In this document: positions 5,275-40,805 of the stretch, in pieces | Numbering within the stretch: the first letter of the stretch is position 1 | How the letters are laid out: the number at the start of each line of letters is the position of its first letter | Source of the DNA: Halorubrum sp. PV6 | GTDB lineage: Archaea > Halobacteriota > Halobacteria > Halobacteriales > Haloferacaceae | Length of the DNA stretch: 64,000 bases | Direction of reading: 5' to 3' | NCBI RefSeq assembly: GCF_003990725.2 | Contig: NZ_CP030064.1 | Location: 1,860,001-1,924,000 of the forward strand | The notes under the pieces: model-generated | The model's input: only the letters and a program-made list of their open reading frames with translations | Databases searched by the model: none | What the model was told of the DNA's origin: nothing | Program-made: the position numbers and the translations under genes

Positions 5275-5353
5275 CTGAGCCACCAACTACCAGTCGGTCG
5301 TTCCTCGCAAATATAAATCCGGTGGCGGTTCGCTCTCCGGTCCGGTGGCTCCG

Positions 5354-5436
5354 GTCCGCCCGCGTCGGCCTCAGGCGTCAAGTCGCCCGCGTCGGCCTCA
5401 AGCGTCCGGTCCGCCCGCGTCGGCCTCAGGCGTACG
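5354..5436. repeat. 27-28 bp tandem repeat, three copies, spanning the MFS stop codon
   Basis: Units at 5354-5381, 5382-5408 and 5409-5436 share the core GCCCGCGTCGGCCTCA. The third unit contains the end of the MFS gene; its TGA (written tca on the plus strand) recurs at the same place in each copy, so the element looks like a twice-repeated duplication of the gene's 3' end. Confidence 0.85.
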
Positions 5437-18768: not shown

Positions 18769-19044
18769 TCACCGGGTGAACCGATATTCGACCGTTCCCA
18801 GTCCGGGGAGGGTGACGTGCCCGACGACCTCGCGGTTGACGTGGCGAGCGAGCGAGCGCGCCAGGATTCCGAGAGCGACGAGGCCGGCGAGGGCGACGAG
18901 CGAGGCGAGGGGGTACGACACCGCGAGGATCGCTACCGCGACCAGCGCGAGGAACGCGACCGAACCGCGGAGGCTCCCTTCGGGCCCGACGCTGGGGCCC
19001 GGCGAGCGACCGACGGACGACGGCCTACCGTTGGTTGAGTGCAT
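18769..19044 (-). CDS. Small two-TM protein, unknown
   Basis: A 91-residue protein: a Gly/Ser/Pro N-terminus of about 25 residues, one or two hydrophobic helices (about 30-65), then a short domain ending LPGLGTVEYRFTR. The start is fixed by the ATG at 19044, which sits about 26 bases downstream of an A-box (GGTATTTACC on the minus strand). No family recognised. It diverges from the 134-residue membrane protein at 19287. Confidence 0.7.
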   Translation of the reverse strand: MHSTNGRPSSVGRSPGPSVGPEGSLRGSVAFLALVAVAILAVSYPLASLVALAGLVALGILARSLARHVNREVVGHVTLPGLGTVEYRFTR

Positions 19045-19066
19045 ACTGTACGATCGGTCCCCCAGC

Positions 19067-19105
19067 GGTAAATACCTTTCATATTGCGAATATGTTTTGC
19101 GAACA
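19067..19105 (-). promoter_or_regulatory. A-box with upstream palindrome
   Basis: Minus-strand TATTTACC at about 19068-19075 is correctly spaced for the gene starting at 19044. Just upstream, 19080-19094 is the palindrome CATATT-GCG-AATATG, and TTGCGAA recurs at 19084-19090 and 19097-19103. This is a plausible regulator site. The rest of the 242-base spacer 19045-19286 is relatively AT-rich with no gene that I can see. Confidence 0.45.
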
Positions 19106-19286
19106 GTTGACACGCAACGTCCACCAATATCGTCTGAAACGGTCGTTCATGCGGTGTAAGTCGTACCATGCTACTCGTTCGTACACTTATAAGAAATCTA
19201 GTAACTACCGAGCCGACGGCGGCCGGAAGCGAGGCGAGGGGGAGCAAATCGGAGGGCTTCTCCCGTTCGCGCGCGTCCGTTCGGTA

Positions 19287-19691
19287 ATGCCCGAGACACC
19301 GACGAGCGGTTGGCGGCGAAACCGCCCCTTCTGGGCGATGGTCGCCGTCGCCGCGCTGTACCTGCCGGTGGCGGTCGTCGCCCGCGCGATGGTCGACCCG
19401 GCGTACGCCGCGGAGCGAGAGCGACTCCCGGCGGTCGTCCTCGACGCCGCGGGCACCGCGCCCGCGACGGTCGTCGGCGGGGCGCTGTGGCTCGCGGTCG
19501 CCGGCGGGTTCCTCTACGCGTTCGCCGCGGAACTCGACGCGGTCCGCGCCCGGAACGGGTGGGCGCCGCCGGCGAAGGGGTACCTCATCCTCGCCGCGGG
19601 GTCGCTGCTCGCGCATCCGGTGGCGGGGGCGCCGCTCGTGTTCCTCCTCGTTCCGGGGTACGTCCTCCACCGCGGGCTTCGGGTCGGGTGA
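19287..19691 (+). CDS. Small membrane protein, unknown
   Basis: A 134-residue protein with three to four hydrophobic segments (about 16-36, 53-78, 98-128), polar N-terminus PETPTSGWRRNRPF and basic C-terminus. The segment GYLILAAGSLLAHPVAGAPL is hydrophobic and Gly/Pro-rich. I do not recognise the family. The ATG at 19287 is chosen since upstream in-frame sequence is AT-rich and not codon-biased. It lies upstream of the DUF7344-like regulator with 106 bases between. Confidence 0.7.
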   Translation: MPETPTSGWRRNRPFWAMVAVAALYLPVAVVARAMVDPAYAAERERLPAVVLDAAGTAPATVVGGALWLAVAGGFLYAFAAELDAVRARNGWAPPAKGYLILAAGSLLAHPVAGAPLVFLLVPGYVLHRGLRVG

Positions 19692-19797
19692 GTCGGCGGC
19701 GGCCGGAGCGCGGGCACAGCGCTGGCGACGCCGCTCGGCGGCGATCCGGCCCGTACATTTATTCCGCGCGAAACGAACGGTACAGTAGGAATCGACC

Positions 19798-20097
19798 ATG
19801 GTAACGACCGAAAACAGTTCGACCGCGCGTTCGGAGCGCGCCGCGGCGGAGCGCAACCGGGTCCTCGCCGGACTCGCGGAGGGAACGGTCGAGACGGCCG
19901 CGGACCTTCGCGTCCGGGGAAGCGCCGAGGAGGTCGCCGACGACCTGCGCGAGGTCCACCTGCCCGCCTTAGAGGAGGCCGGGTACATCGAGTGGGACCG
20001 GGACGCGGGAACGATCGAGCCGGGCCCGAACTTCGACGAGGTCGCCGACCACGTCGAGGACCTCCCGTTCCCGGACGGCAGCACCGACGACGACTGA
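19798..20097 (+). CDS. Small winged-helix protein (DUF7344-like)
   Basis: A 99-residue acidic protein. Residues 20-75 fit a winged helix: RNRVLAGLAEG, a divergent second helix, then LREVHLPALEEAGYIEWD, the recognition-helix and wing segment of haloarchaeal DUF7344 HTH proteins. Possibly a transcription regulator, target unknown. TATTCC-like A-box lies about 35 bases before the ATG. Its stop codon is the first base pair of a 37-bp tandem repeat. Confidence 0.75.
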   Translation: MVTTENSSTARSERAAAERNRVLAGLAEGTVETAADLRVRGSAEEVADDLREVHLPALEEAGYIEWDRDAGTIEPGPNFDEVADHVEDLPFPDGSTDDD

Positions 20098-20217
20098 CGC
20101 CGCGGGGGACGCCTCGCCCGAGACGTTTTTACGACGCCGCGGGGGACGCCTCGCCCGAGACGTTTTTACGACGCCGCGGGGGACGCCTCGCCCGAGACGT
20201 TTTTACGACGCCGCGGG
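20096..20217. repeat. 37-bp tandem repeat, three full copies plus 11 bp
   Basis: Exact copies at 20096-20132, 20133-20169 and 20170-20206, with a partial copy at 20207-20217. Each ends in GACGTTTTTAC, a T-tract that can serve as terminator for the upstream gene or as A-box for the downstream methyltransferase (last copy about 30 bases before its ATG at 20234). The first copy begins inside the upstream TGA stop codon. Copies are identical, so the expansion is recent. Confidence 0.92.
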
Positions 20218-20233
20218 TCACTCTCGACATCGC

Positions 20234-21154
20234 ATGGCCGAGCCGATACTGAAGTGGGCCGGCGGCAAGCGCCAGCTCCTCGACGCGTTGTACGCCCGGT
20301 TTCCGGCCTCGTACGGCTGCTATCACGAGCCGTTCGTCGGCGGCGGCGCCCTCTTCTTCGATCTGGAGCCCGCGAACGCGAGGATAAACGACGCGAATCC
20401 CCGGCTGGTCAACTTTTACGAGCAGGTTCGCGACAGCCCCGACCGGCTGATCGACCGGCTGGAGTCGTTCGACGACCCCGAGAGCGACCCCGACCCGTCT
20501 CTGCCGTACGCCGAGGAGACCGCCCGCGGCCGCGACGTGACGAACTACTACTACCAGCAGCGAGCGCGGTTCAACAGCCGGCCGTACGCGGGGACGTTCG
20601 ACCCGCTCGAAGAGGCGGCGCTGCTCGGCTACCTCAACCGCACCTGTTACAACGGGCTCTACCGAGAGAACGCCGACGGCGGATTCAACGTCCCGATCGG
20701 CCGGTACGCGAACCCCGACTGGGTCCAGCGCGACCGGATCCGCCGAGCCAGCGACGCGCTCGCGGACGCGACGATTCGCAACGACGACTTCGACTACGTC
20801 CTCGACGCGGCCGATCCGGGCGACCTGGTCTACTTCGACCCGCCGTACGAGCCGATGAGCGCGACGGCGAGTTTCAACGAGTACAGCGCCGCGGGGTTCG
20901 ACCGAGACGACCAGCAGCGACTGCTCGACGTCGCGGCCGAACTCGACGAGGCGGGCGTTTGGGTCATCCTGAGCAACAGCGGCGTGATGAAGGCGGCGTA
21001 CGCGGAGGCGGGCTTCCGCGTCGAGACCGAGGGCGCGACCCGCGCGATCAACAGCGACGCGTCGAACCGCGACGAGGTCGACGAAATCGTCGCGACCAAC
21101 GTCCCGCCGTCGGAGCGCCGGGCGGCGGGGCAACGCGACCTCGCGGAGTACTGA
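20234..21154 (+). CDS. Dam-family adenine-specific DNA methyltransferase
   Basis: Transfers a methyl group from SAM to N6 of adenine in DNA. The 306-residue protein has the alpha-class order: N-terminal ILKWAGGKRQLL, motif I EPFVGGGAL (residues 34-39 contact SAM), the target-recognition middle domain (about 60-170, including YLNRTCYNGLYRENADGG), and catalytic DPPY at 202-205. Length and motifs match D12-class MTases such as M.DpnII/Dam. No restriction endonuclease gene lies beside it, so it looks like an orphan. The recognition site cannot be read off. It is preceded by three copies of a promoter-like repeat. Confidence 0.93.
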   Translation: MAEPILKWAGGKRQLLDALYARFPASYGCYHEPFVGGGALFFDLEPANARINDANPRLVNFYEQVRDSPDRLIDRLESFDDPESDPDPSLPYAEETARGRDVTNYYYQQRARFNSRPYAGTFDPLEEAALLGYLNRTCYNGLYRENADGGFNVPIGRYANPDWVQRDRIRRASDALADATIRNDDFDYVLDAADPGDLVYFDPPYEPMSATASFNEYSAAGFDRDDQQRLLDVAAELDEAGVWVILSNSGVMKAAYAEAGFRVETEGATRAINSDASNRDEVDEIVATNVPPSERRAAGQRDLAEY

Positions 21155-21200
21155 GCGCCCGGACCGCTTCGGGCGCGGGGCGGCGGCGAGGGCGACCGCA

Positions 21201-21221
21201 GAGGGCGGGCTTTTTGCCCTC
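21201..21221 (+). terminator. Hairpin with T5 loop between dam-like gene and UspA gene
   Basis: GAGGGC (21201-21206) pairs with GCCCTC (21216-21221) around a loop ending in TTTTT. It may end the methyltransferase message; the same T-rich stretch lies about 27 bases before the UspA start at 21241 and could double as its A-box. Confidence 0.4.
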
Positions 21222-40104: not shown

Positions 40105-40805
40105 TCGGCGTCGCCGTCGGCTGACTCGGGAGCGGGCGTCTGTTCCGCGTCGGCGTCTTCGTCTTCCGCTTCGGGTTCCGTATCGTCGTCGCTGTCCCGG
40201 CTCGCGAGCCCGACGAGGTGGCCGATCTCGGGGAGGATGATCTCGTCGACGCCGAGTCGGACCGCGTTCTCGGAGCCGGGGAGACAGAAGACGGGCGTCG
40301 CGGTCGTGACGCCGGCGACCGCTCGCGAGCCGATCGTGTGCGTGCCGACCTCTTCGTAGGAGAGCCGGCGGAACAGTTCGCCGAATCCGGGGAGCGTCTT
40401 GGCGAAGAGCGGTTCGACGGCCTCGGGCGTCACGTCGTCGGGCGTCACGCCCGTCCCGCCGGTGGTGACGACCGCGTCGGTGTCGTCCCGGCGCGCGAGC
40501 CGGTCGACGGTCCCCTGCACGCTGTCGTACTCGTCGCGGACCAGTTCGTGGACGGCGATCTCGTGGCCGGCCGACTCGAACGCGGAGACGAGGTACTCGC
40601 CGGAGGGGTCCTCCTTGAGCGTCCGCGAGGACGTTACCGTTACGACGGCGACCGAGACGGACGCTGCGTCGTGGCTGTGATGGCCGTGATCGTCCCCGCC
40701 GTCGTGATCGTGGCCGTGATCGTCCCCACTGTCGTGTGCGTGGCCGTGATCGTCTCCGCCGTCGTCGCCGTGCCCCTGACTCTCGGAGTCGTGCGCGTCG
40801 CTCAT
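40092..40805 (-). CDS. moaB: MoaB/MogA-like molybdenum cofactor protein with His-rich N-terminus
   Basis: A 237-residue protein. Residues 10-47 are nearly all His, Asp and Gly, encoded by a threefold 30-bp repeat; the MoaB/MogA fold follows: VAVVTVTSSRTLKEDPSG, VVTTGGTGVTPDDVTPEA and FCLPGSENAVRLGVDEIILPE. Family members adenylylate molybdopterin before metal insertion. The His stretch suggests metal (Ni, Zn, Cu) binding or delivery and is not part of the standard fold. A 35-residue acidic tail ends the protein. It overlaps trpG by 13 bases at the 3' end. Confidence 0.9.
   Translation of the reverse strand: MSDAHDSESQGHGDDGGDDHGHAHDSGDDHGHDHDGGDDHGHHSHDAASVSVAVVTVTSSRTLKEDPSGEYLVSAFESAGHEIAVHELVRDEYDSVQGTVDRLARRDDTDAVVTTGGTGVTPDDVTPEAVEPLFAKTLPGFGELFRRLSYEEVGTHTIGSRAVAGVTTATPVFCLPGSENAVRLGVDEIILPEIGHLVGLASRDSDDDTEPEAEDEDADAEQTPAPESADGDADQAS
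40681..40770. repeat. 30-bp coding tandem repeat, three copies (His/Asp-rich)
   Basis: Units at 40681-40710, 40711-40740 and 40741-40770, all starting TGGCCGTGATCGTC. Each encodes about ten residues of the type HGHDHDGGDD in the MoaB-like protein; the repeat keeps the reading frame. Confidence 0.85.

Follow-up and report, generated by a model that had tools for sequence, protein, structure and literature searches.

A tandem array before an orphan dam gene in Halorubrum sp. PV6: probably a core promoter triplicated within one lineage

In the genome of Halorubrum sp. PV6, a perfect tandem array lies directly upstream of an orphan dam methyltransferase gene, and we consider it likely, from sequence comparison, that this array arose when the dam core promoter was triplicated head to tail within this lineage, with copy 3 driving a near-leaderless mRNA and the extra copies having a weak effect. 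The array (20096-20217, numbered in the window, that is, the whole 64,000-nt stretch of DNA analysed) consists of 3.3 exact copies of a 37-bp unit. Three identical 37-bp copies had been claimed in the initial annotation, and the copies are indeed exact with a period of 37: the three perfect units (20096-20132, 20133-20169 and 20170-20206, all on the + strand) are followed on the same strand by an 11-bp partial unit (20207-20217). The 11-mer GACGCCGCGGG, located at the left end of the array (20096-20106, + strand), opens every unit and also closes the array at 20207-20217. The array makes up most of the 136-nt intergenic gap between a gene encoding a DUF7344-domain protein and dam. Its first two bases are the last two of the DUF7344 gene stop codon (TGA, 20095-20097), and its end is separated from the dam ATG by 16 nt.

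Among the 44 TRF rows of the window, the array has the highest score (244, the runner-up scoring 140), and its exact self-match run measures 85 nt, compared to a longest run of 15 in 200 dinucleotide shuffles of the region 19000-21200. The 26-mer core of the unit has no other occurrence across the 3.04-Mb genome, even when up to three mismatches are allowed. In 464 kb of the same genome, comprising the window and 20 sampled stretches, 8 distinct exact arrays of at least two copies were identified (10 rows, two of which are double-period rows of listed arrays); of these, the one upstream of dam contains the longest exact run. Elsewhere in the window, imperfect arrays of 27-30 bp units are present at 5350-5433 and 40681-40765 (TRF scores 140 and 135, respectively), and elsewhere in the genome an intergenic 16-mer, TTCGGTCATCATCCGG, is found in 4.25 exact copies (L097, 19490-19557). 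A perfect repeat of 122 bp can be mis-sized by short-read assembly, and the copy number could in principle be an assembly artefact. This appears very unlikely, given that the assembly is made up of 2 contigs with 99.8% completeness and that the array is shorter than common sequencing reads.

The gene following the array (20234-21154, + strand) encodes a 306-aa Dam-family DNA adenine methyltransferase, which matches TIGR00571 over the cutoff (252 bits), PF02086, and the MTase_II and oMTase models of PADLOC. The nearest solved sequence is DpnM (2dpm), and the protein contains DPPY and FVGGG motifs. The gene preceding the array (19798-20097, + strand; 99 aa) had been called DUF7344-like, and its product matches PF24035 with 29.2 bits (cutoff 27.8). 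The other neighbours encode a Usp protein, DUF63, DUF456 and DUF2150 proteins, an amine oxidoreductase and an MFS transporter. Of the proteins encoded around dam, 9 located from 15.4 to 25.9 kb, a subset of the ORFs of the window, were scanned with PADLOC without a match, and no restriction gene adjoining dam was found among them. This agrees with the earlier description of the downstream gene as an orphan methyltransferase, and the family is itself described as orphan (PMC6471742). Specifically, an orphan Dam group named cHG W is reported there to be present in ~95% of Halorubrum strains, and the sequence of the window's Dam protein fits this group. The GATC:CTAG ratio, 2720:98 in 444 kb of the genome, falls in the class above 20 reported for several haloarchaea and E. 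coli (PMC5867850). GATC over-representation was also considered as a sign of Dam activity and was rejected, the motif occurring at only 0.94 of its Markov-2 expectation. A second, weaker D12-class methyltransferase gene (PF02086, 75 bits) is carried by the same genome (G000:C1:1357911-1358480, - strand; L100).

The native state of the promoter can be read from the relatives. Searching 59 genomes (own genome included) gave some match to the region in 51, many of them short only, and 47 named loci were taken from the genomes' contigs. After removal of loci sharing the last 60 nt upstream there were 58 relatives (59 rows with the window), 39 of which have at least 74% dam protein identity: one Halosimplex and 38 Halorubrum-type orthologs, a designation resting on kinship labels and record titles, some loci being nameless. 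A CCCGRGACGTTTWT-type block with near-invariant columns occurs at a fixed place before dam in 37 of the 38 Halorubrum-type orthologs, its TATA-like tract beginning at about -34 and its GRGACG starting at -40 (22 orthologs), -39 (14) or -37 (1) from the ATG, and there is exactly one such block in each of the 37 in the 300 nt examined. In the remaining ortholog (L011), this position is occupied by GTGACGTTTAT. The TATA-like hexamers in the 37 orthologs are TTTATA (14), TTTATC (10), TTTATG (5), TTTATT (3), TTTTTA (3), TTTTTG (1) and CTTATT (1). Copy 3 of the window (CCCGAGACGTTTTTAC, 20191-20206, + strand) is the counterpart of this block, single and placed the same way in these orthologs, whereas copies 1 and 2 are unmatched in the relatives. 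Identity to the closest relatives in this stretch of DNA is 78-84%, and the 37-mer array is absent from all relatives examined. That copy 3 would be the native, ancestral core promoter of dam is thus well supported by the alignment, according to which the upstream two copies are a lineage-specific duplication.

The same alignment bears on whether the units could instead be an operator array for a regulator, e.g. the DUF7344 protein, whose gene is a conserved neighbour of dam (a homologue adjoins dam in most Halorubrum-type loci). This is highly improbable: the unit sequence upstream of the CCCGRGACGTTTWT block is unconserved among the orthologs, the dam promoter is kept in relatives L027-L031 despite no DUF7344 homologue being found in their loci, and an alignment of the DUF7344 protein yielded no solved relative, DNA binding remaining putative.

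A resemblance of the units to an archaeal A-box had been noted beforehand, and it holds well, in that each copy contains a core promoter element that is conserved in the orthologs at the right distance from the gene. The BRE/TATA-like sequence GAGACGTTTTTAC is found in every copy (starting at 20120, 20157 and 20194), and the tract of five T residues (T5) of copy 3 lies at -34 to -30 relative to the dam ATG. In Haloferax, 72% of the protein-coding transcripts are reported to be leaderless, that is, to begin 0-5 nt before the start codon, and TTWT has been proposed as the haloarchaeal TATA element (PMC4983044). The dam promoter follows this layout, its TTTTT beginning at -34 from the ATG, within the range expected of such an element (some 25-35 nt before the start of a leaderless gene). 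In 209 genes of the own genome with an intergenic gap, both TTTAT and TTTTT peak in the zone from -35 to -26, which holds 16/36 and 12/28, respectively, of their occurrences in the last 100 nt before the start codons. T5 or longer tracts are likewise overrepresented before starts, 12 being seen in the zone from -40 to -21 where ~1.6 would be expected. At the position of a CGAAA-type BRE there is a conserved CCCGRGACG, which is not an exact CGAAA. Furthermore, an A at -5 (20229, + strand) is conserved in 34 of 37 orthologs, and on the basis of this conservation and of its spacing to the TATA-like tract (29 nt, counted from the first T) it is predicted to be the transcription start. A scan for sigma-70 promoters, which are not expected in an archaeon, found none.

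The dam promoter is not exceptional in its conservation, an idea that was dropped, since the downstream Usp gene has an equally conserved promoter in these genomes (26.2 bits of information over 14 columns in 37 sequences, vs 25.2 bits in 39 sequences for dam). Before the Usp gene, at 21203-21216 of the window, a T5 block, GGGCGGGCTTTTTG, is located at -38 to -25 and is almost invariant in 37 orthologs. This block lies ~55 nt past the dam stop and may be promoter and terminator at once. The Usp case shows that a T5 tract at the promoter position can be conserved, although this particular tract could also end dam transcripts.

In the proposed mechanism, TBP and TFB would bind CCCGAGACG-TTTTTA in copy 3, and transcription would begin ~5 nt upstream of the ATG, so that the dam mRNA would be almost leaderless. 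The BRE/TATA-like sequences of copy 1 (20120-20132, with T5 at 20126-20130) and copy 2 (20157-20169), both on the + strand and both lacking a counterpart in relatives, repeat the TBP/TFB-site sequence but without the conserved start-site segment GACATCGC. These copies could presumably bind TBP/TFB as well, in which case RNA would begin at about the BRE of the next unit and would meet the T5 of the next copy within ~10 nt. Because of this start within the next copy, the immediate T5 and the lack of a GACATCGC segment, copies 1 and 2 probably add little productive dam mRNA, as judged from their anatomy. They may, in addition, lower readthrough out of the DUF7344 gene.

Readthrough is central to another explanation, foreshadowed in the initial annotation by a U-tract terminator acting as a barrier. 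That is, the T5 tracts would end the DUF7344 transcripts, three in a row would shield dam from readthrough, and the T5 of copy 3 would double as TATA element. The array does provide T5 tracts after the stop codon, at 28, 65 and 102 nt past it (-108, -71 and -34 from the dam ATG), the one in copy 1 being at a distance of only 28 nt. A T5C tract is reported to give 95% termination in Haloferax volcanii (PMC7237163), and in the own genome the 60 nt following stops contain more T5 or longer tracts than expected (27 seen among 423 genes, vs ~5). However, the unit reads T5AC, not T5C, and the array contains no terminator-like hairpin: an RNA hairpin or bacterial-type terminator was rejected, with z values of -1.16 for the unit and 0.41 for the whole gap, and the scan found none in the array. 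Moreover, among the 30 relatives in which a DUF7344-type stop could be recognised upstream (4 further relatives, in which it could not, being left out of this count), 25 lack a tract of four or more T in the gap, suggesting that termination in the gap is not a conserved need. In the other 5 of the 30, the tract is at the TATA position only in four and elsewhere in one (L043, at -65). We therefore regard termination as a rather unlikely main function, the claim of a barrier standing insofar as T5 occurs in both contexts in the genome and losing ground where the gaps of the relatives are concerned. The extra T5 tracts of the window may nevertheless terminate or insulate, and T5 could be mainly a terminator of the DUF7344 gene, which is a point against the triplicated core promoter as best explanation. 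It is improbable that the units are combined TATA-terminators, each recruiting TBP/TFB and ending incoming transcripts, such that a unit number changeable by slippage would set both insulation and the output of a global DNA methyltransferase.

As to the origin of the triplicated promoter, the same 11-mer opens the units and closes the array, and the ancestor would therefore carry an 11-bp direct repeat. A single-unit ancestor with this repeat 37 nt apart would offer enough for slippage, and slippage between the 11-bp direct repeats is the most likely route to the duplication. The copies show no divergence among themselves, which points either to an event that is recent compared with the divergence of the species from its relatives or to homogenised copies; gene conversion could be an alternative source of their perfect identity.

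Perfect 37-bp repeats are able to gain or lose units, raising the possibility of a phase-variable dosage switch, in which frequent copy-number change in the population would set dam expression and hence the methylome. Three 37-bp copies are, however, unlike the short-unit repeats that characterise classical contingency loci, and within the loci compared, arrays upstream of dam (4/47) are not significantly more frequent than those upstream of the other genes (6/167; Fisher P 0.23). Such upstream arrays thus seem to occur generally in these genomes, and the idea of a hot spot upstream of dam was dropped after this same-loci control. It had been suggested by a first per-base count (4 arrays in 7050 nt upstream of dam vs 15 in 310775 nt elsewhere) and by an earlier comparison of 4/58 dam upstreams of relatives with 1/202 own-genome upstreams (P 0.009), the other gene upstreams within the same loci being the fairer control. 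On the other side, L014 and L035, whose dam sequences are 93.7% identical, have unequal gaps upstream of the promoter, that of L014 being shorter by about one 27-bp unit, and tandem repeats in regulatory DNA have been discussed as altering expression (PMC3899988). On balance, such a switch seems quite unlikely. The other arrays upstream of dam have units of 27 bp (L035), 21 bp (L033), 25 bp (L065) and 14 bp (L060), and in none of these four arrays is the TATA element repeated. In L035 (Halorubrum sp. Atlit-26R), 2.4 copies of the 27-bp unit, with GATC inside the units, lie at -100 to -36, directly before the dam BRE. Farther from dam, L043 (Halorubrum aidingense) has 2.7 copies of a 43-bp unit at -1682 to -1566 from the ATG, composed of two alternating 21-22-bp subunits (AGCTCCGGGT...) and lying close to the 3′ end of what seems, by eye, to be a homologue of the window gene at 18769-19113.

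The triplicated promoter would represent a clean example from nature of an archaeal core promoter that has been duplicated, its single-copy form being seen in more than 30 relatives, and if its copy number varied, an archaeon would thereby have a means of changing a global mark of DNA methylation. Among the entries listed in literature searches on archaeal promoter duplication, tandem promoters and intergenic variable repeats, none was relevant. The gene itself resembles the halobacterial orphan Dam group cHG W in being a Dam-family enzyme of a Halorubrum-type genome whose tested neighbours lack a defence-model match; as far as that source describes the group (PMC6471742), no difference is seen, the GATC target being assumed for the window's Dam. 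With the archaeal T-tract terminator described for Haloferax (T5C, PMC7237163), the array shares a T5 after the stop codon, but the T5 of the window is followed by AC and lies at the conserved TATA position, where relatives mostly have a tract other than T. Bacterial promoter variable-number tandem repeats are similar in having exact tandem units over a promoter, whereas the unit described here holds an archaeal core promoter element and is seen in a single copy number, in the one genome of this species analysed. In layout, the array resembles the leaderless core promoter of Haloferax volcanii (BRE and TTWT, dRNA-seq), as outlined in PMC4983044: position, TTTWT core, a conserved BRE-side block and near-leaderless spacing are alike, while the window differs in having three tandem copies and, on the BRE side, CCCGAGACG instead of CGAAA.
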